From: Deltaproteobacteria bacterium
Lineage (GTDB): Bacteria; Desulfobacterota; Desulfobulbia; Desulfobulbales; Desulfurivibrionaceae
Length of the DNA stretch: 64,000 nucleotides
Reading direction: 5' to 3'
Assembly (NCBI GenBank): GCA_013349295.1
Contig: DUZW01000013.1
Span: forward strand, 1 to 64,000
Made by a program: the position numbers and the translations under genes. This document shows, piece after piece, positions 2,662 to 27,216 of the stretch; within the stretch, counting starts at the first letter, position 1, and every line of letters begins with the position of its first letter. A model generated the notes under the pieces. That model made no database searches. It was not told where the DNA came from and saw only the letters and a program-made list of their open reading frames with translations.

Positions 2662-3933
2662 TTACTCGTTGTTCCGTTCCATATCCGGATAGAGAGGAAA
2701 GGCATCGCACAACGCCCGAACTTCAAGGCGGATGGTGTTCAGAGCTTCCTTGTTCTGGCGATTCTCTATGGCCCGGTTGATCCAGTCGGCCACCTTGGCC
2801 ATCTCCGGTTCCTTGAGACCACGGGTGGTCACGGCCGGAGTGCCGATGCGCACACCGCTGGTGACAAAACGACTCTGCTGATCAAAGGGGATGGCATTTT
2901 TGTTGACGGTGAGACCGGCTTCTTCCAAGGCCTCTTCCGACTCCTTGCCGGTTGCCCCTTTATTGCTCAGATCAACCAACAGCAGATGATTGTCGGTGCC
3001 GCCGGAAACAAGGCGGAAACCGTAACGGACCAGCCCTTCCCCCAAGGCTTGGGCATTTTTGACAACCTGCGCCTGATCCTTCTTGAATTTCACGCCCATG
3101 GCCTCCTTGAAGGCCACAGCCTTGGCTGCGATAACATGGACCAGCGGCCCACCTTGGATGCCGGGAAAGATCTTGCTGTCTAATTTTTTACCGAACTCAG
3201 CCTTGGCGAGAATCAGACCACCCCGCGGTCCGCGGAGGGTCTTGTGGGTGGTGGTAGTGACAAAATCGGCATACGGCACCGGTGAGGGATGGACCCCGGC
3301 CGCAACCAGCCCGGCGATATGGGCCATATCTACCATGAACAAGGCGCCGATCTTGTCGGCTATGGCCCGGAACCCGGCAAAATCGATAACCCTGGGGTAG
3401 GCGCTCGCACCGGCCACGATCATCTTCGGCTTGTGCTCAAGAGCGACACGCTCCACCTCATCCATGTCGATACGCTCGGTTTCCCGGTTCACCCCGTAAG
3501 AAACAAATTTATACAACTGTCCGGAAAAATTCACCCCTGCTCCATGGGTAAGATGGCCGCCGTGGGCCAGATCCATGCCCAGCACCGTATCACCAGGCTG
3601 CAGCGAAGAGAAATAGACCGCCATATTGGCCTGACTGCCGGAATGGGGCTGGACATTGGCGTATTCGGCACCGAAGATCTTCAGAGCCCTTTCAATGGCC
3701 AGGGATTCGATCTGGTCGGCATATTCACACCCGCCGTAGTAGCGCTTACCGGGATATCCCTCGGCGTACTTGTTGGTGAAAATGGAACCCTGAGCCTCAA
3801 GCACCGCCTCGCTGACAATGTTTTCGGAAGCAATCAGTTCGAGTTGATTGCTCTGCCTTGCCAACTCATGGCGAATGGAACGGTACACATCCGGATCACT
3901 CTCTTTCAAATACGACACTGCAGTATCCTTCAT
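2662..3933 (-). CDS. glyA: Serine hydroxymethyltransferase
   Basis: PLP enzyme interconverting serine plus tetrahydrofolate with glycine plus methylene-THF, the main entry to one-carbon metabolism. The PLP-lysine motif [11 protein letters not shown] is intact and the 423-residue length is standard. The ATG at 3933 (MKDTAV) was chosen because it gives a family-like N-terminus; an in-frame TTG at 3966 adds 11 residues, and neither has a strong ribosome binding site. A gap of about 135 bp separates it from rpiB and contains a GC-rich imperfect hairpin near 3986-4020 without a U-tract. Confidence 0.96.
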
Positions 3934-4068
3934 GGTTATTTGTGGGTTAAAAAACCGCGCCAACAATATTTCGACAAAATAATCACGGCCGAAAAATTAC
4001 TCCAGGTAATTCCGGCCGCGCAATAATCAAGCGTGCTTTGGAGTCCACCGCTGGGCAGACTCGTTTTC

Positions 4069-4491
4069 CTAGAACATATCAATCCGCCGCTGATGCCGGC
4101 CCCCGGCAAAATCGGTGCTGACCCAAGCCCGGGCAATCTCCAGCGCCAGACCGGGGCCGACGACCCTGGCCCCCATACAGAGCACATTGGCGTCGTTATG
4201 CTCCCGGCTCATCCGGGCGGTGAAAAGCTCGTTACAAAGAGCGGCGCGGATCCCCTCAAAACGGTTGGCCACCATGGACATCCCGACCCCGGTTCCGCAG
4301 ATCAGAATCCCGCGCTCGCATTCGCCTTTCTGCACCTGGGCGCACACAACCTTGGCAAAATCCGGGTAATCAACAGACTCGGTGGCAAAACAGCCTTTGT
4401 CATCCACCACATGCCCCAACTCCTGAAGCAGGGGAACGATTTCCGCTTTCAGGCTGATGCCGCCGTGATCGCAGCCGATGGATATCTTCAC
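4069..4491 (-). CDS. rpiB: Ribose-5-phosphate isomerase B
   Basis: RpiB interconverts ribose 5-phosphate and ribulose 5-phosphate (LacAB_rpiB family). The N-terminal ISIGCDHGG and the catalytic-cysteine segment ICGTGVGMS are typical. A GTG start at 4491 gives the expected KISIGCDHGG N-terminus and a 140-aa protein. Longer upstream reading would lie inside fabF. The GTG overlaps the fabF TGA (GTGA), so translation is probably coupled. Confidence 0.93.
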   Translation of the reverse strand: MKISIGCDHGGISLKAEIVPLLQELGHVVDDKGCFATESVDYPDFAKVVCAQVQKGECERGILICGTGVGMSMVANRFEGIRAALCNELFTARMSREHNDANVLCMGARVVGPGLALEIARAWVSTDFAGGRHQRRIDMF

Positions 4492-5735
4492 GGCTTTGCC
4501 TCGTACTGTTTCATGATCAAAACCGCATTGGTTCCGCCAAAGCCAAAGGAATTGGACATGGCAGCCCTGATTTTCATCTTTCGGGCCTGATTGGGGACAT
4601 AATCCAGATCGCACTCAGGACTGGGGTTTTCCAGATTCATGGTTGGCGGAGCAATCTGGTCCTTGATGGCCAGCGCGGTGAAGACCGCTTCGATGCCCCC
4701 TGCCCCGCCCAACATATGGCCGGTCATGGACTTTGTCGAACTGATGGCCAGCTTATACGCCTGGTCGCCGAAGGCGGTTTTAATGGCTCGGGTCTCAACC
4801 ACATCGTTCAGCGGGGTCGAAGTGCCATGGGCATTGACATAGTCAACATCCTCAGGCTTCATGCCCGCATCCTTCAAGGCCATCTGCATGCAGCGCACCG
4901 CACCGTTGCCATCCTCGGGAGGAGCGGCCATGTGATATCCGTCGCCGCTCAGGCCGTAGCCGGCAACCTCGGCGTAGATCTTGGCGCCGCGGGCTTTAGC
5001 ATGCTCCAACTCCTCGAGAATCAACACGCCGGCCCCTTCGGAAATAATAAAACCGTCCCGATCCCGGTCAAAGGGACGCGAGGCTTTTTGAGGCTCGTCA
5101 TTGCGGGTGGAGAGCGCCTTCATCGCGTGAAAACCACCGACCGCCAGAGGACAGATCACCGATTCGCTGCCGCCGGTAATGGCCACATCGCATTCATCGT
5201 TGGCAATGGAACGAAATGCTTCCCCCACCGCATGGGTGCCTGCGGCACAAGCGGTGGTGAGACAAAGATTCGGGCCCCTGGTGCCGTAAATAATGGAAAT
5301 CTGTCCGGCGCCCATATTGGGGATAACCATGGGGATGAAAAAGGGGGTGATCCGCTTGGTTCCCTTTTCCAGGGCCACCTGATGGTATTTTTCAATGGTG
5401 GGCAGACCACCGAGTCCGCACCCCATGATACTGCCGACCCGGGGGGCATTTTCCTCGGTAATTTTGAAATCGGCATTACGCAAGGCTTCCCCGGCGGCGG
5501 CAACAGCGTATTGCACAAAGAGGTCCAGATGCTTGGCGACCTTCTTGTCGATATGCTCTTCGACCTGAAAATCCTTGACCTCGGCGGCGATGTTGACCCC
5601 GACTTCACTGGCGTCGAACCGGGTTATCGGGCCGATGCCGCTGATGCCTGCGCACAGTGCGCTCCAAGTTTTCTCCACACCTGTTCCCAGGGGAGTAACC
5701 AGTCCAACTCCTGTGACCACTACTCGTCTGCCCAC
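4488..5735 (-). CDS. fabF: 3-oxoacyl-ACP synthase II
   Basis: KAS II elongating condensing enzyme of type II fatty-acid synthesis. The catalytic triad is visible: Cys in TTACAAGTH, His in NAHGTST and His in MTGHMLGG. The GTG at 5735 gives MGRRVVVTGVG and is preceded by GAGG six bases upstream. An earlier GTG at 5747 adds four residues but has no good Shine-Dalgarno. It follows acpP by about 115 bp on the same strand and overlaps rpiB. Confidence 0.95.
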   Translation of the reverse strand: MGRRVVVTGVGLVTPLGTGVEKTWSALCAGISGIGPITRFDASEVGVNIAAEVKDFQVEEHIDKKVAKHLDLFVQYAVAAAGEALRNADFKITEENAPRVGSIMGCGLGGLPTIEKYHQVALEKGTKRITPFFIPMVIPNMGAGQISIIYGTRGPNLCLTTACAAGTHAVGEAFRSIANDECDVAITGGSESVICPLAVGGFHAMKALSTRNDEPQKASRPFDRDRDGFIISEGAGVLILEELEHAKARGAKIYAEVAGYGLSGDGYHMAAPPEDGNGAVRCMQMALKDAGMKPEDVDYVNAHGTSTPLNDVVETRAIKTAFGDQAYKLAISSTKSMTGHMLGGAGGIEAVFTALAIKDQIAPPTMNLENPSPECDLDYVPNQARKMKIRAAMSNSFGFGGTNAVLIMKQYEAKP

Positions 5736-6993: not shown

Positions 6994-8183
6994 GAGCTTT
7001 TCCTTTCCTTGAATTTCTCAATAAGCTTGGGCACGATTTCAAAGACATCACCGACAATGCCATAAGTGGCCACGTCAAAGATCGGAGCATCGGCGTCACG
7101 ATTAATGGCGATAATGGTATCGGCAGACTGCATCCCTACCAGATGCTGGATAGCTCCGGAAATCCCACAGGCGATATAAATTTTGGGAGCCACGGTTTTA
7201 CCGGTCTGCCCTACCTGATGCGGATAGGGAATCCAACCGCTGTCCACCGCCGCCCGGGAAGCGGCAACCGCCCCGCCCAAGACATCGGCCAGTTCCCGGA
7301 TCATGGCGAACCCCTTCTCGTTTTCCAAACCCCGACCACCGGCGACGACAATATCGGCCTCGCTGAGGTTCACCCGGTCAAGGTCTTCAACCACCGAATC
7401 AAGCACCTTGACGCGGGGCTTGAGCATGGCAGTATCCAGATTTACGACGACAATTTCCCCCTTGCGCCCAGCATCCCTGGCAAGGGGCTTCATCACCAGC
7501 GGCCGCACCGTGGATATCTGTGGGCGGGTATGGGGGCAGACAATGGTGGCCATGATGTTGCCGCCAAAGGCCGGACGGGTCTGGAGCAGTGCGCCGTCTT
7601 CATCGCGAATCGACAGATCAGTACAATCGGCGGTGAGGCCTGTGGCCAGTGTGGTGGCAACCCGAGGGATAAAAGATCTGCCGATGGCCGTAGCACCGGC
7701 AAGAATAATTTCCGGCTTGTGCTTCTTTGCCAGCGCACTCAAAGCATTGCCATAGGCGTCATCGGTAAAAGAGGCCAGAGCCGGATCATCGACAACAAAA
7801 ACCTTGTCGGCACCGTAAGCAACAAGATCTTCGGCCATACCCTCAAGTTTCGAGCCAAGTAGAACAGCGGAAAGGGAAACCCCTCTTTTTTCAGCCAGCT
7901 TACGCCCTGCCCCAAGCAATTCCAGGGCTACGGGAGCGATCCGGCCGTGCCGGCATTCCGCGTAAACCCAAACGCCGGACCAGTCGGACAGGTTGCCCTT
8001 GATTGCCTTTTCCTCTCTATCAATGGAAAGAGCACCGACCTCGCAGACATCCACGCAACTGCCGCACAGGGTACAGGTATCGCCGACCACGGCCTGTCCG
8101 CCTTCAACCTTGATTGCCCCGAAGGTACAGGTACTTTCACAGATACCACAACCAATACAGGCTTCTATATCAATGCGTAACAT
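6990..8183 (-). CDS. etfA: Electron transfer flavoprotein alpha subunit with N-terminal 2x[4Fe-4S] ferredoxin domain
   Basis: This EtfA has an additional ferredoxin domain at residues 1-55 with two CxxCxxCxxxC-type motifs ([11 protein letters not shown] and [11 protein letters not shown]). The ETF alpha domains follow, ending in the FAD-binding segment with [16 protein letters not shown] and ACGISGA. Ferredoxin-fused EtfA is known from CarE of caffeyl-CoA reductase and LctC of lactate dehydrogenase, both flavin-bifurcating systems. Here it follows acyl-CoA dehydrogenase and etfB in the carC-D-E order and overlaps fabG. Bifurcation is an inference. Confidence 0.94.
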
Positions 8184-8310
8184 AGGGAATTCCGTTCGTC
8201 TGAGCCGTTGTTTAATATAATCGAAAGATCAAAAAAATCTTATCCCGGCACAAAGTGCCTTAACAAAATGACCAAAAAACAAATAGATATTTCGTAACGG
8301 CGACTAACAC

Positions 8311-9090
8311 CTACAAGAGAGGCGACATTTTTTCATACAGCTGGGCAACCTGCTCAGTGGCAGTCCCGCCAAGCATGGCCCGCGCCCCTTTCAGTTCCGG
8401 AGAGAATACCTTGACCACCTGGGTGGTGGAACCTTTGAGCCCCAACTGCTCCGGATCTGCCTCGATATCCACCGCAGTCAGTTTGGTGATATCGATCTTT
8501 TTCGCCTTCATCTTCCCCTTGAGGGAAGGAATCCTTGGCTCATTGATCTCTTTGACCACGGTGAATAAAGCGGGCAACGGGATCTCAAGCAAGTCGTAAC
8601 CGTCATCCATGAGACGTTCTGCCCGGATGGTATTAGCGGTACAGTCGTTGATCTTCCGCACATAAGCGACAAAAGGAATATCAAGACGCTCTGCCAGACC
8701 GGGGCCCACCTGAGCAGTATCCCCATCGATGGCCTGCTTGCCGCAGAGGATAAGATCAAAATCGTCGATCTTCTTAATGGCCATGGCAAGGGTATAGGTT
8801 GTCGCCCAGGTATCAGCTCCGGCAAAAGCACGATCCGAGACAAGAACCGCCTCATCCGCCCCGCAGGAGACAGCCTCGCGCAACATCTCCTCTGCCTGGG
8901 GAGGTCCCATACTGAGAACCGTCACTGTACCGCCGTGCTTTTCCTTCAGGCGAACCGCTTCCTCAAGGGCATGACGATCATACGGGTTCATAATGGATTG
9001 CACGCCTTCCCGGGCAAGGGTGTTGGTTTTGGGATCCAAGCGAACATCCTTGGCGTCGGGAACCTGTTTTACGCAAACGATGATCTTCAT
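8311..9090 (-). CDS. etfB: Electron transfer flavoprotein beta subunit
   Basis: EtfB partners EtfA in moving electrons to or from an acyl-CoA dehydrogenase. Conserved ETF-beta segments are seen: IVCVKQVPD, DRAFAGADTWAT, CGKQAIDGDTAQVGP and the C-terminal GLKGSTTQV. These resemble EtfB of bifurcating Bcd/Etf systems more than mitochondrial EtfB, as judged from memory. The protein has 259 aa. Its ATG overlaps the stop of the acyl-CoA dehydrogenase by one base (TAATG). A 127-bp gap without recognisable elements separates it from etfA. Confidence 0.94.
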   Translation of the reverse strand: MKIIVCVKQVPDAKDVRLDPKTNTLAREGVQSIMNPYDRHALEEAVRLKEKHGGTVTVLSMGPPQAEEMLREAVSCGADEAVLVSDRAFAGADTWATTYTLAMAIKKIDDFDLILCGKQAIDGDTAQVGPGLAERLDIPFVAYVRKINDCTANTIRAERLMDDGYDLLEIPLPALFTVVKEINEPRIPSLKGKMKAKKIDITKLTAVDIEADPEQLGLKGSTTQVVKVFSPELKGARAMLGGTATEQVAQLYEKMSPLL

Positions 9091-10244
9091 TAGGACCTCA
9101 TATACTCCTTGTTGAGTTCCTGACCAATAACATTACGCTGGATCTGATTGGTGCCCTCATAGATCTGAAGAATCTTGGCATCACGCATCATCTTTTCCAC
9201 CGGGTAATCGCGCATATATCCATAGCCGGCCAGAACCTGTACCGCATCGGTGGCAACCTTCATCGCCATGTCGGTGGCAAATACCTTGCACATGGAAGAT
9301 GCTTTGGACATATCATTTTTATGGGCGTCGATATGCTTGGCCGCAGAGTATACCAGAGCACGTCCTGCCTCGACCTGGATGGCCATATCAGCCAGAATAT
9401 GCTGCACCGCCTGAAAGGAAATAATTGGCTTGCCGAACTGAACACGCTGCTTGGCATAGGTCACCGCCTCATCCAGGGCGCCCTGCCCCAGACCTACACC
9501 GAGGATCGCAATACCCGGACGGGACTGATCCAGGGTCTTCATCACAGTGATAAAGCCCATACCGACCCGGCCAATGACCCTGTCCTTGGGGATACGACAA
9601 TCCTTGAAGATCAGTTCCCGGGTGGAAGAACAGCGGATGCCCAGCTTCTTCTCCTTAACCCCGTATGTAAAACCAGGGTCGGTATCCTCGACCACGAACA
9701 TGGTGGCGCCACGGGGGCCCTTACTTTTGTCGGTGATGGCAATCACCGTATAGATCTGGGCCTCACCGGCATTGGTAATCCACTGCTTGGTGCCGTTCAG
9801 TACCCATTCATCTCCATCGAGCACGGCGGTGGTCTGGATGCCGGAGGCATCGCTGCCGGCATTGGCCTCGGTAAGAGCAAAGGCCGCCAGCTTTTCGCCG
9901 CTGGCAATGAGAGGCATATATTTTTGTTTCAGCTCATCGCTGCCGGAAATAAGAATCGGGTAGGCGCCCAATGCACTGGCGGCAAAGGCGGTAGCCACTC
10001 CGGTACAGCCGCGGGCAAACTGCTCAAGGGCCAGAGCCATCTCAAAACACCCACCGCCCAATCCGCCATATTCTTCGGGGATATACAGACCATACAAATC
10101 GGCCTTGGCAATAGAGGTCAAGATATCACGTGGATATTCTTCGGTTTCATCCAATTCCGACCTTTGCGGAATAATCATTTCATCGGTAATCTGCCGAGCA
10201 ACATCGACAATCATCTGCTGCTCTTCGCTCAAGAAATAATCCAC
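9090..10244 (-). CDS. Acyl-CoA dehydrogenase family protein
   Basis: FAD-dependent acyl-CoA dehydrogenase or enoyl-CoA reductase of 384 aa. It shows ALTEANAGSDASG, the W-TNA FAD motif (KQWITNAGEA) and the C-terminal catalytic-base region YEGTNQIQRNVIG. It uses GTG at 10244 behind an AAGGGGG ribosome binding site. With downstream etfB and ferredoxin-type etfA it reproduces the CarC-CarD-CarE arrangement. Its place between fabH and fabG suggests it may work reductively in lipid synthesis rather than in beta-oxidation, but substrate and direction cannot be read from sequence. Confidence 0.92.
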   Translation of the reverse strand: MDYFLSEEQQMIVDVARQITDEMIIPQRSELDETEEYPRDILTSIAKADLYGLYIPEEYGGLGGGCFEMALALEQFARGCTGVATAFAASALGAYPILISGSDELKQKYMPLIASGEKLAAFALTEANAGSDASGIQTTAVLDGDEWVLNGTKQWITNAGEAQIYTVIAITDKSKGPRGATMFVVEDTDPGFTYGVKEKKLGIRCSSTRELIFKDCRIPKDRVIGRVGMGFITVMKTLDQSRPGIAILGVGLGQGALDEAVTYAKQRVQFGKPIISFQAVQHILADMAIQVEAGRALVYSAAKHIDAHKNDMSKASSMCKVFATDMAMKVATDAVQVLAGYGYMRDYPVEKMMRDAKILQIYEGTNQIQRNVIGQELNKEYMRS

Positions 10245-24426: not shown

Positions 24427-24437
24427 TTTAACCTGGA

Positions 24438-24466
24438 AAAATAACCAACTTTCGGATCACAGTCAA
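24438..24466 (-). promoter_or_regulatory. Candidate tRNA-Leu promoter
   Basis: TTGACT (24461-24466) and TATTTT (24438-24443) on the minus strand, 17 bp apart, lie just upstream of the tRNA-Leu 5' end at 24426. Confidence 0.55.
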
Positions 24467-24623
24467 GGACGGCTTGCGATTTTAAGCCGATTTATAGGCA
24501 ATTGACCTTAAACACAAATGGAGAAAAGTACGCTTTGCCCCCATGGGGCCTACGGCACAATCCCTTTCATCGACGATGACGGAGCACCACTTTTTTACCC
24601 CTGATAATTCTGCACAGCCCCAC

Positions 24624-24653
24624 TTGACAAGGCAGGGAAAAAAATGGTTTATT
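24624..24653 (+). promoter_or_regulatory. Promoter of the riboswitch/cbp operon
   Basis: A perfect TTGACA (24624-24629) is followed after 18 bp by TTTATT (24648-24653). Transcription would begin near 24660, just before the cobalamin riboswitch. The rest of the 24427-24623 gap between the divergent tRNA-Leu and this promoter shows no gene or further element. Confidence 0.65.
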
Positions 24654-24675
24654 CATTAAAAAGACAAACACTTCA

Positions 24676-24883
24676 TCATCCCGGAACACGGTGTAATTCC
24701 GTGGCGGTCCCGCCGCTGTAATCGGGGATGCTGGTAAGCACAGGGAATTCCCAGGTCACTCCCGGAACTAAATATTGGGGGGAAGACCGCAGACCAGCAG
24801 ACGATCCGAAAGCCAGAAGACCTGATGATTCTGTTTCTACAGTGCGTACTGCTGTTCGTCTGGGGATTCTTATGGAAACAGAA
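24676..24883 (+). promoter_or_regulatory. Cobalamin (AdoCbl-type) riboswitch
   Basis: The conserved aptamer core is clear: GGTGTAATTCC and GCGGTCCCGCCGCTGTAA (24704-24721), followed by the B12-box segment GATCCGAAAGCCAGAAGACC (24803-24822). After the box a perfect 9-bp stem (TTCTGTTTC 24829-24837 / GAAACAGAA 24875-24883) may be the regulatory hairpin that kisses the aptamer. It ends against an intrinsic terminator, so cobalamin probably controls transcription read-through into the peptide and radical SAM genes. Sign of regulation (usually OFF with ligand) is inferred. Confidence 0.93.
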
Positions 24884-24920
24884 CCCGGAGTGGCTCCAAT
24901 GGGGTTGCTCCGGGTTTTTT
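24882..24920 (+). terminator. Riboswitch expression-platform terminator
   Basis: Stem AACCCGGAG / CTCCGGGTT (core 24884-24890 with 24908-24914) followed by six T (24915-24920), about 35 bp before the cbpA start codon. It is the only terminator between aptamer and coding region and so the likely output of the riboswitch. Confidence 0.85.
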
Positions 24921-24955
24921 CATGCACGCAGTTCAACAATAAAAAGGAGAACACC

Positions 24956-25084
24956 ATGAAAGCACAGAAAGAGATCATTTCGTACCGTCGGCGTTGCAAC
25001 CTGATAGGCCAGGGCACCGGTCTTTCTCATTATATCCTGCTCGCCCCCAGCGCCAAGACAACACAAGAGGACGGCAGCAAGTAA
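24956..25084 (+). CDS. cbpA: 42-aa modified-peptide precursor, CbpA type
   Basis: Short peptide with a strong AAGGAG ribosome binding site five to six bases before the ATG. The N-terminal half is basic (ISYRRRCN, residues 8-15) with a single Cys14. The C-terminal half is Gly/Ser/His/Tyr-containing (GQGTGLSHYILLAPSA, residues 18-33). The stop overlaps the radical SAM gene start (TAATG), so the two are translationally coupled. Size, coupling and the upstream cobalamin riboswitch fit what I recall of the CbpA precursor family paired with CbpB. The modification, cleavage site and activity of the product are unknown. The family name is from memory. Confidence 0.85.
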   Translation: MKAQKEIISYRRRCNLIGQGTGLSHYILLAPSAKTTQEDGSK

Positions 25085-26475
25085 TGGAACAAAAACACAA
25101 ACAGACAGCAGCGACCATTTTCGCCAACACCGGCCATGGCCCAAATTTTTCCGTGCTGGAGATAGGCGATCCCGACCGGGTTGCGGTTGTCGAGGCGGAT
25201 ACGGCTTACTGGGCCCTGGTTGACCGGGATGACCTGCCCCATGCCTTGGCCGGCTCCATGACCCAAGATTTCATAGTCCGCGAGTCGGAATTTCACACGG
25301 AAATGGAACACCTGCGCTCAGGATTGAAGCTCTCCGCCGCGTATGTGAACCCCACCGAACGGTGCAACCTGAACTGCAGCTACTGCTACCTCCCGGAAGA
25401 GATGCGCAAAAACGGCATCGACATGGGAGAGGAAAAGCTGATGCTCGCTCTTGAGCGATTACTGCAGCATTTTCGAAAGGTTTTGCCCGAGGGAGTAAAA
25501 CCGCAGCTCATTTTTCACGGCAGCGAGCCCATGGTTGCAAGAGATGCCGTGTTTGCTGCAATTGCAAAATATAAAGATGAGTTCCATTTCGGCATCCAGA
25601 CCAATGCCACTTTGCTTGATGACAGCGCAATCAGCTTTTTAAGAGCGCACGGGGTCGGCATTGGCCTTTCCCTGGATGCCCCCACGTCGGAAATTGCCAA
25701 CAGCACCAGAAAAAACTGGCAGGGGAACGGATACTTCGACACCGTTGTTTCGGTGATCAAAAAACTCGTCGATTATCCGGCCCTCAATGTCATAACCACT
25801 GTTACGCAAGCAAACGTGCATACCCTGACCGAAATGGTGGACTTCTACCACGGGCTGGGGGTACGGGTGGTCATGTTCAATCCGGTGCGTTGCACCCGCC
25901 AAGGCGGCATGGACCTGAAACCGGACAACCGTGTCCTGGCAGAGGCTTTCTTCAAGGCACTGGACCGCTCCTTTGAGCTTTTTGAACAAACCGGCAAAAA
26001 ACTTGTCATCGCCAACTTCGCCAATGTTCTGGCGGGAGTTATCGGTCCGACCGGCCGCAGACTGATGTGCGACATCTCTCCCTGCGGAGGCGGTCGTTGC
26101 TTCTTTGCCGTTTCCGCTGACGGCGAGGTGGTGCCGTGCAGCGAATTCATCGGCATGAACGAGTTTTCCGGAGGGAATATCTTCCGTGATGATCCTGCCG
26201 ACATTCTCGCCAGCAAGCCCTTCCAAGAGGTGACCAACAGGAAGGTGGAAAAAATCCTACCCTGTGCAGGATGCGCCATTCGGCATTTCTGCGGGGCGCC
26301 ATGCCCTGCCGAAATCTACAAGGTGTCCGGCGACATCAATGCGCCGAGCCCTTACTGCAGTTTCTTTGAAGAACAAGTGCGCCATGCCTTCCGAATAATC
26401 GCCCAACAGCGGGAGGATGCTTATCTTTGGGACAGCTGGCGGACCGAAACTGAAATGTCCTACTGCTGGAAGTAG
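25084..26475 (+). CDS. cbpB: Peptide-modifying radical SAM/SPASM enzyme, CbpB type
   Basis: 463-aa maturase. Residues 1-85 form an N-terminal region that could bind the precursor. The radical SAM cluster motif is CNLNCSYC (Cys94, 98, 101). A C-terminal SPASM region carries Cys329, 334, 339, 352, 394, 397, 403, 407 and 425, enough for two auxiliary [4Fe-4S] clusters, with the CGAPCP and CSFFEE segments typical of peptide maturases. The ATG at 25084 overlaps the cbpA stop and is far better placed than an in-frame ATG at 24994 inside cbpA. An intrinsic terminator follows. Chemistry (thioether, C-C or other crosslink) cannot be decided from sequence. Confidence 0.9.
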   Translation: MEQKHKQTAATIFANTGHGPNFSVLEIGDPDRVAVVEADTAYWALVDRDDLPHALAGSMTQDFIVRESEFHTEMEHLRSGLKLSAAYVNPTERCNLNCSYCYLPEEMRKNGIDMGEEKLMLALERLLQHFRKVLPEGVKPQLIFHGSEPMVARDAVFAAIAKYKDEFHFGIQTNATLLDDSAISFLRAHGVGIGLSLDAPTSEIANSTRKNWQGNGYFDTVVSVIKKLVDYPALNVITTVTQANVHTLTEMVDFYHGLGVRVVMFNPVRCTRQGGMDLKPDNRVLAEAFFKALDRSFELFEQTGKKLVIANFANVLAGVIGPTGRRLMCDISPCGGGRCFFAVSADGEVVPCSEFIGMNEFSGGNIFRDDPADILASKPFQEVTNRKVEKILPCAGCAIRHFCGAPCPAEIYKVSGDINAPSPYCSFFEEQVRHAFRIIAQQREDAYLWDSWRTETEMSYCWK

Positions 26476-26487
26476 TTTTTCCCATAA

Positions 26488-26523
26488 AACCCAGTCGGGG
26501 ATTCCCTCGGCTGGGTTTTTTTT
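26488..26523 (+). terminator. Intrinsic terminator of the cbp operon
   Basis: Stem AACCCAG (26488-26494) / CTGGGTT (26511-26517), with inner pairing around GGGGATTCCC, followed by eight or more T. It begins 12 bp after the cbpB stop. Confidence 0.9.
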
Positions 26524-26554
26524 CGAAATCCTTCCCGGTTTTTCCATTCTCGAT

Positions 26555-26582
26555 TACAATATCATGACACCACAATCATGAT
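26555..26582 (+). promoter_or_regulatory. -10-like element and perfect palindrome upstream of the flavoprotein gene
   Basis: A TACAAT element (26555-26560) is followed immediately by a perfect 7-8-7 inverted repeat ATCATGA (26561-26567) / TCATGAT (26576-26582). The palindrome would cover the transcription start, a classic position for a repressor operator. The -35 (TTCCCG) is poor, so recruitment by a regulator is also possible. Confidence 0.45.
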
Positions 26583-26637
26583 CACCGCAAAATACCCCCG
26601 GACCTCGCGGAGAAAAACAGATGACGAAGGAGATGCC

Positions 26638-27216
26638 ATGAAAGTCGTCGCTTTTAACGGAAGCGCCCGCAAAGGCGGAAATACCGCAAAGTTGTTGAAT
26701 ACCACCCTGGAAGAGCTTTCCCTTCAAGGGATTGAGACGGAACTGGTGGAATTATCCGGCCAACCGATCTCCGGCTGCATTGCCTGCTATCAATGTTTCA
26801 AAAACAAGGACAATCGTTGCGCCGTGGAAAAAGACATCATCAACGATTGTCTTGCCAAAATGATCGCGGCGGATGGCATTCTTCTGGGCTCCCCCACCTA
26901 CTTCGCCGATGTCTCCGCTGGAATGAAGGCCCTGATCGAGCGGTGCGGCATGGTTTCCCGGGCCAACGGCGACCTGTTCAAACGCAAAGCCGGCGCCGGG
27001 GTGGTTGCGGTCCGGCGAGCCGGCGCCTATCAAGTGTTCAACTCCCTCAATGCCTTTTTCCTGATCGGCCAGATGATCGTGGTGGGCTCCTCTTACTGGA
27101 ACATCGGTATCGGCAGAGAACCAGGCGAGGTGGCAAACGACGAGGAAGGCATGAAAACCATGCGTGACCTGGGACGAAACATGGCCTGGCTCCTCCGGAA
27201 AATCAAGGCGGAATAA
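26638..27216 (+). CDS. Iron-sulfur flavoprotein / NADPH-dependent FMN reductase family
   Basis: 192-aa flavodoxin-fold protein. The FMN phosphate loop is FNGSARKGGNT (about residues 6-16), then a cysteine motif CIACYQCFKNKDNRC (C-x2-C-x2-C-x7-C), matching the [4Fe-4S] motif of archaeal/anaerobe Isf proteins, then GSPTYFADVSAGMKALIER. Such proteins transfer electrons or reduce oxygen species. The ATG at 26638 follows GAAGGAG; the upstream ATG at 26578 lies inside the palindrome. It is separated from cbpB by a terminator and 162 bp, so co-function with the peptide system is only a suggestion. Confidence 0.88.
   Translation: MKVVAFNGSARKGGNTAKLLNTTLEELSLQGIETELVELSGQPISGCIACYQCFKNKDNRCAVEKDIINDCLAKMIAADGILLGSPTYFADVSAGMKALIERCGMVSRANGDLFKRKAGAGVVAVRRAGAYQVFNSLNAFFLIGQMIVVGSSYWNIGIGREPGEVANDEEGMKTMRDLGRNMAWLLRKIKAE

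Follow-up and report, generated by a model that had tools for sequence, protein, structure and literature searches.

The cbpAB gene pair behind a cobalamin riboswitch: a small peptide and its radical SAM enzyme, with a possible role in corrinoid handling

Why would a bacterium place a 42-codon gene and a gene for a radical SAM enzyme behind a cobalamin riboswitch? The question is raised by a locus on the forward strand of the window, by which we mean the whole stretch of 64,000 nucleotides of DNA that was analysed.

Layout of the locus in the window

The aptamer core of the riboswitch (24683–24821, + strand) aligns with positions 47–167 of RF00174 and scores 67.4 bits (E = 1.8e-14), above the gathering score of 31.5. 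Our own riboswitch model, R1, gives 123.9 bits at 24684–24825, the window sequence being one of the 23 from which R1 was built. Downstream, a computed fold places a 15-pair hairpin (24883–24915) and a run of Ts, together a predicted intrinsic terminator (24883–24919, + strand) that would serve as the off switch; the stretch 24822–24925 folds at −41.4 kcal/mol (z = −4.24), and none of 200 shuffles did as well. Then comes cbpA (24956–25084, + strand, from an ATG at 24956 to TAA), with a ribosome binding site that we recognised by eye (AAGGAG, 24944–24949, + strand). It encodes a 42-residue precursor peptide, called on a profile match and on codon selection. In the sequence TAATG it overlaps by one base with cbpB (25084–26475, + strand), which encodes a 463-residue radical SAM/SPASM enzyme (TIGR04163; Pfam Radical_SAM and SPASM). 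A second predicted intrinsic terminator (26486–26523, + strand) lies 3' of cbpB, where the stretch 26476–26530 folds at −26.3 kcal/mol (z = −5.29, again with no shuffle of 200 as good).

An initial annotation, made without database searches, had claimed each of these elements–the aptamer, the terminator between it and the peptide gene, the 42-codon gene with its ribosome binding site, the TAATG coupling to the 463-residue enzyme, and the terminator after the enzyme gene–and all of them held. It had also claimed a promoter, which we could not confirm: a scan of 24430–26640 reports nothing sigma-70-like on the + strand 5' of the riboswitch, and the TTGACA that can be seen by eye at 24624 has no scored −10 box. 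Judged from the DNA itself, the order riboswitch, terminator, cbpA, cbpB is established. An open frame of 118 amino acids (24728–25084, + strand) crosses the riboswitch in frame with cbpA, so automatic gene callers could give CbpA a falsely long N-terminus.

CbpA and CbpB as a pair

CbpB matches TIGR04163 over profile positions 2–428 of 428 with 668.3 bits (E = 4.1e-201; cut-off 375), and it matches both Radical_SAM and SPASM in Pfam, the latter with 35 bits against a threshold of 21.5. Among the best 25 of the 70 NCBIfam models compared, every other model gives at most 137 bits, to the nearest bit, and stays below its own cut-off; the next-best scores are those of DynA (137.4 bits), PapB (133 bits) and the quinohemoprotein amine dehydrogenase maturase (125 bits). 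The radical SAM motif and the nine-cysteine SPASM region that the initial annotation described could both be located: the CxxxCxxC motif is CNLNCSYC (C94, C98 and C101), and the SPASM-region cysteines are residues 329, 334, 339, 352, 394, 397, 403, 407 and 425, with the patterns C-x12-G-x4-C from C334 and C-x2-C-x5-C-x3-C from C394. In SPASM enzymes generally, this cysteine pattern holds two further iron-sulfur clusters. An identity as an anaerobic sulfatase maturase, which had been named as a grouping that would count against the annotation, is ruled out by the profile scores (119.4 bits on TIGR03942, cut-off 349.45).

The window CbpA has the core R11-C14-x7-G22-L23-S24-H25-Y26 and scores 25.9 bits (E = 5e-6) on TIGR04164, below the curated cut-off of 35, so the earlier assignment to the CbpA/CbpB family is borne out above cut-off for the enzyme and only below it for the peptide. 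This low score is probably due in part to the spacer of 7 between Cys and GLSH, which makes the peptide a long-spacer type: on the same model, peptides with a spacer of 5 score 36.6–59.4 bits and those with a spacer of 6 or 7 score 20.2–36.1 bits. When ten CbpA peptides were scanned singly, 7 reached at least 35 bits (one of them exactly 35), and all 29 members of our CbpA set A4 match it with E values no higher than 0.01.

We collected 108 CbpB loci, of which 102 are distinct by a 600-nt stretch of cbpB. The core R-x-x-C-x(2-7)-GL-[SAT]-H-[YF] is present 5' of cbpB in 104 of them. Three of the four exceptions (L071, L087 and L123) are truncated where the contig ends, and in the fourth (L070) cbpA is unlinked, elsewhere in the same genome, G418. 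That unlinked copy is at 9110–9205 of L190 (contig 22), with another radical SAM-like gene, seen by eye, 5' of it at 7791–8984. The letters of the motif are partly built in, because it was widened from a first version, GLSH[YF], which was found in 98 of the 108 loci; five of the six misses inspected had Ala or Thr in place of Ser. Among 73 distinct cores, Ser occurs in 68, Tyr in 70 and Phe in three, and Arg, Cys, Gly-Leu and His are invariant, as they are in the 29 sequences of A4. Since the hydroxyls of Ser and Tyr both appear dispensable, the residues of CbpA most likely to matter chemically are Cys and His. Pairwise comparison of the 11 loci from the genus gives 488 synonymous and 103 non-synonymous differing codons over cbpA codons 1–33, and 73 and 210, respectively, over the tail (codons 34–42). 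By these counts codons 1–33 are under strong protein-level selection within the genus, and the tail is not. The annotation had asked whether the peptide frame is conserved among relatives, and both the core and the synonymous excess indicate that it is. A search of the PDB with the CbpA profile gave one match, at E = 1.3, which we attribute to chance.

CbpB scores above cut-off in 36 of 395 genomes of the phylum and in 11 of 17 of the genus, and in none of 10 genomes from other genera of the family. A distribution this patchy indicates that cbpAB is dispensable for B12 use, which counts against a role in corrinoid handling. Named genomes yielded 66 relatives of CbpB (L064–L129) among the best 80 of 398 confirmed stretches; by record title these come from many phyla, including Omnitrophota, Verrucomicrobia, Planctomycetota and Chloroflexi, and from Actinomycetes, Magnetococcales, and Alpha- and Betaproteobacteria. 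We found no relatives in viral contigs and one on a plasmid, pHY1 of Methylovirgula sp. HY1 (E = 1e-30), where the genes are annotated as cbpA-cbpB and have the same order as in the window.

The CbpA profile matches the same 36 phylum genomes as CbpB (E = 1.3e-9 or better), and only two weak matches occur among the 359 genomes that lack CbpB (G030 contig 69, E = 2.8e-4, and G082 contig 3, E = 5.2e-4; probably both by chance). In 40 further genomes or records it matches all 34 carriers and none of the six negatives from the genus. Second, weak matches are seen in G166, a phylum genome, and in G437 and G438. The two proteins also share a history. A quick tree was built from 73 of the 75 CbpB sequences of the thinned set, two short or interrupted ones being omitted. 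On it, peptides with a spacer of 6 or 7 are confined to one clade of 24 rows (SH-aLRT 99), within which every linked peptide is of this type and to which the window CbpB belongs. Spacer length changes four times on the tree, and riboswitch presence nine times. Because spacer type tracks the enzyme clade, peptide and enzyme evolve together. We regard the pairing of CbpA with CbpB as established by these co-occurrences. Sequence evidence supports the view that CbpB, as a radical SAM/SPASM enzyme, is dedicated to CbpA, and it very probably modifies the 42-residue peptide.

Riboswitch, neighbouring genes and the corrin ring

The annotation had suggested comparing neighbourhoods for co-occurrence with the riboswitch, and the co-occurrence is there. 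Using a model built from 23 aptamers on the 700 nt upstream, we found a riboswitch 5' of cbpAB in 87 of the 108 loci, and in 58 of the 75 that are left when the set is thinned at 85% identity, the model-building loci matching by construction. As an independent check, RF00174 was found in 18 of the 20 loci scanned (not in L038 or L039). A hairpin with a T run lies between riboswitch and cbpA in 75 of the 87 riboswitch-bearing loci, compared with 1–5 of 87 in each of five controls shuffled by mononucleotide; the 12 without one, by title mostly Actinomycetes and Alphaproteobacteria, may use translational control. This layout of riboswitch and predicted terminator fits the earlier proposal that the peptide is expressed at low B12, and makes it very likely that cbpAB is controlled by corrinoid. 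Under stricter filters, which lose weak matches, at least one cobalamin riboswitch is present genome-wide in 66 of 68 carriers or records. With these filters none was found in genome G418, which has cbpB and the unlinked cbpA, or on the Methylovirgula plasmid, and these two pairs count against repression by corrinoid. In L036, the space between a distant cbpA and the cbpB gene holds an Acido-Lenti-1 RNA match (1237–1281, − strand, 46.2 bits against 37).

The genes around cbpAB point in the same direction as the riboswitch. Of 87 thinned loci, 22 have a corrinoid or cobalt gene at most 6 kb away, compared with none of 60 control regions from carrier genomes (40 from genus, phylum and G432 genomes and 20 from genomes of the named records). 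Among loci with full flanks the count is 12 of 55 (p = 7e-5), or 5 of 48 (p = 0.015) after removal of the seven loci from which the query proteins were taken. These counts fit the role in corrinoid or metal use that the annotation had proposed; nothing in our comparisons points to its further suggestion that the product replaces a corrinoid. Within the thinned set such a gene is near 12 of 18 loci without a riboswitch (7 of 13 without the query-source loci) and 10 of 69 loci with one, so cbpAB tends to have either its own riboswitch or a corrinoid gene group nearby. The small share of riboswitch-bearing loci with such a gene nearby counts against a role in corrinoid handling. Six loci showed neither in the sequence examined (L034, L070, L095, L099, L102 and L123, the last cut by a contig end).

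Some of these neighbours concern cobalt, and they bring in the alternative that survives best, which we nevertheless consider unlikely: that modified CbpA is a cobalt chaperone, binding Co(II) and delivering it to a chelatase at low B12. In riboswitch-less loci a cobalt transporter gene follows cbpB–CbiM directly in L086 and after a 494-nt gap in L147, and a NiCoT transporter next to cbpB in L088–and in L148 the order is CobA-type adenosyltransferase, CobB/CbiA, CbiC, cbpA, cbpB, a CbiX/CfbA-like protein (its best models below cut-off) and CbiM. The invariant Cys and His of CbpA would suit such a role. Against it, these cobalt neighbours have further corrinoid genes around them and may be no more than markers of B12. 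BluB is next to cbpB in L103. The gene group of cbpAB in L088 also includes a match to the model of CbiR, a cobamide-remodelling phosphodiesterase (3739–4551, 261.5 bits against 105). In L073, L080, L098 and L124, cbpB is near genes for a Dph6-like ATP pyrophosphatase and an asparagine-synthase-like protein (named in L080, assigned by cluster in the other three), and with BtuFCD-like genes, recognised by eye, this forms a recurrent corrinoid gene group.

The corrin-ring genes bear more directly on the choice between cobalt and corrinoid. The window genome has two other cobalamin riboswitches and has CbiC, CbiD, CbiL and CobS, and so looks able to make the ring. On its contig 6 a CbiK-like gene (L184, 8582–9559), which to the eye seems to encode a signal peptide, lies beside two same-strand cobalamin riboswitches, with cbi genes further on. 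Across 80 phylum and genus genomes (completeness at least 90%, except G035 at 85%), 34 of the 38 carriers have CbiC, as do 22 of the 42 non-carriers (p = 0.0005 by Fisher's test, with relatedness ignored), an excess that a cobalt chaperone would lead one to expect. However, the genus carriers G012, G022 and G023 (95, 91 and 99% complete) keep riboswitch and cbpAB, and profile searches found in them no CbiC, no CbiD and no CbiL above cut-off; CobS turned up in two of them (G012, G023) but not in G022. Each of the three has a TonB-receptor-like gene, recognised by eye, beside a riboswitch. Dechloromonas hankyongensis (G437) likewise carries cbpAB, with no CbiC, CbiD or above-cut-off CbiL found; its congener D. 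hortensis (G435) has CbiC and CbiD, and a strong CbiM copy that G437 is missing. The same three genes were not found in G421, G428, G434, G436 and G438, genomes whose completeness is not given, and G019, G338 and G423 have CbiD and lack CbiC, perhaps through assembly gaps. A strict link between cbpAB and ring synthesis is thus ruled out by G012, G022, G023 and G437. The non-carriers G017 and G024 also lack CbiC and CbiD, so within the genus cbpAB is not tied to ring synthesis either way. The persistence of cbpAB where ring synthesis is missing speaks against a role confined to cobalt insertion and favours the capture, holding or assembly of corrinoid, though it may still be compatible with a use of cobalt elsewhere. 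CbiM was uninformative in separating the two, because CbiM-type genes occur in 16 of the 17 genus genomes, carriers or not.

Other neighbours are less regular. We find it quite unlikely that the pair makes a redox or enzyme cofactor, similar to PQQ, at low B12 for a B12-independent route. A single conserved core across many phyla does suggest one product with a housekeeping use, and on pHY1 cbpAB is near pqqA, pqqD and pqqE, but no partner enzyme recurs in a constant position among the clusters examined, and the riboswitch-less copies are mostly near corrinoid or cobalt genes. An FMN-reductase-like flavoprotein gene (26638–27216, + strand; PF03358, 108.8 bits) follows cbpB in the window and is found in nine loci of close relatives (L064, L065 and L177–L183, two of them from the same genome). 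It is present in none of the 98 other loci, so we rejected it as a partner and attribute it to synteny within the genus. The annotation had stated that no exporter or protease is nearby. With part of the neighbours named by profile, we recognised neither family at a fixed place near cbpAB, and to that extent the statement stands; a broad cluster that includes ABC-type ATPases, its members not individually named, does turn up in 15 of 75 loci, in no constant position. That CbpA is a signal, a regulator or a secreted peptide acting on other proteins, RNA or cells is improbable: it is small, basic and strongly conserved, and 51 of 87 loci have no same-strand gene called within 200 nt 3' of cbpB, but no transporter or protease has a fixed place among the partly named neighbours, no signal sequence is seen in CbpA by eye, and its core is conserved beyond what is usual for secreted antibiotics.

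A possible corrinoid-handling peptide and its known relatives

We propose, with a probability of roughly 0.45, that cbpAB is a corrinoid-repressed two-gene system whose modified peptide handles scarce corrinoid. The proposal draws on the pairing and co-evolution of the two proteins, the riboswitch with its terminator, the corrinoid and cobalt neighbours, the retention of the pair without ring genes, and the likeness of CbpB to CteB. The riboswitch, with corrinoid bound, and the terminator would together stop transcription, so that cbpA and cbpB would be made when corrinoid is scarce. CbpB would recognise CbpA by the residues that lead up to the Cys, near [VI]-I-x-x-R, and act on the part of the core that runs from this invariant residue to Gly-Leu-x-His. 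The modification is likely to centre on the Cys, and its form would most likely be a thioether, with the Cys sulfur attached to a carbon. More speculatively, the small basic product would remain in the cytoplasm, where the invariant His, and perhaps the Cys, could bind corrinoid or its cobalt, and scarce corrinoid could be captured, held or passed on to adenosylation and nucleotide-loop assembly. Of the roles considered, corrinoid handling has the best support, and our confidence in it is moderate. Its most specific form, in which modified CbpA is a RiPP corrinoid-binding peptide, an intracellular B12 chaperone or trap that is produced during B12 scarcity alone, with His and Cys as cobalt ligands, is a tentative one that we think possible and somewhat doubtful.

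Structure models give hints that the stretch before the Cys is recognised. The annotation had suggested modelling the peptide together with the N-terminal region of the enzyme, and we folded a read-through of cbpA and cbpB from L066, in a full and a shorter version. The enzyme is predicted well (mean pLDDT 86.3, pTM 0.88), and for the first ten residues of the peptide the mean pLDDT is 77 (full version) or 62 (shorter version), with a short strand at residues 9–11 (Arg-Arg-Cys) and 5–9, respectively. The co-modelling did not place the core (pLDDT below 50 at residues 14–46 of the full version), which counts against the proposal. Many radical SAM/SPASM peptide maturases, though not all, carry a RiPP recognition element near the N-terminus. 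A search by fold revealed none in CbpB: its N-terminal domain model has no Foldseek match at E = 0.001, and the N-terminus has no Pfam match in the window or L066 protein.

Within the limited literature and terms searched, we found no paper that names the CbpA or CbpB models; they define a named but uncharacterised family, of which the window pair is a further member. If CbpA does bind corrinoid or cobalt, the means by which bacteria of many phyla manage B12 would come to include a ribosomal peptide. The function of cbpAB becomes testable through mutants of the invariant core, through the two spacer subtypes with the enzyme clade that matches them, and through strains that carry the pair without ring genes. 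With that family (TIGR04164/TIGR04163) the window pair shares the CbpB score of 668 bits, the CbpA profile match and the gene order of pHY1, and it differs in the sub-cut-off score of its peptide and the spacer of 7.

The closest solved structure to CbpB is CteB (PDB 5wgg), both in a sequence-profile search (E = 2.4e-31) and in a fold comparison (E = 7.8e-20), and the full-length CbpB model aligns to it over 470 columns. We take CteB, whose entry title concerns thioether formation, to be a SCIFF-type maturase. As in the cbpAB pair, a short Cys peptide is next to the enzyme. SCIFF peptides have six Cys, whereas CbpA has one invariant core Cys, and CbpB gives 104.6 bits on TIGR03974, below the cut-off of 425. 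By fold, the order after CteB is sulfatase maturase, ChlB, TigE, SkfB and SuiB. The anaerobic sulfatase maturase (PDB 4k37, E = 5.3e-18) has the radical SAM and SPASM fold in common with CbpB, which goes with a dedicated small peptide and not with a sulfatase; sulfatase maturase is not known to make a cross-link, so as the next structural match it leaves the thioether likely without singling it out. After its own model, CbpB scores highest on that of the dynobactin maturase DynA (NF041298), with a cut-off of 450 that it does not reach. Dynobactin has a Tyr-His C-N cross-link, according to PMC11002830. CbpA has an adjacent His-Tyr, but here the Tyr can be replaced by Phe, and it is the Cys that is invariant.
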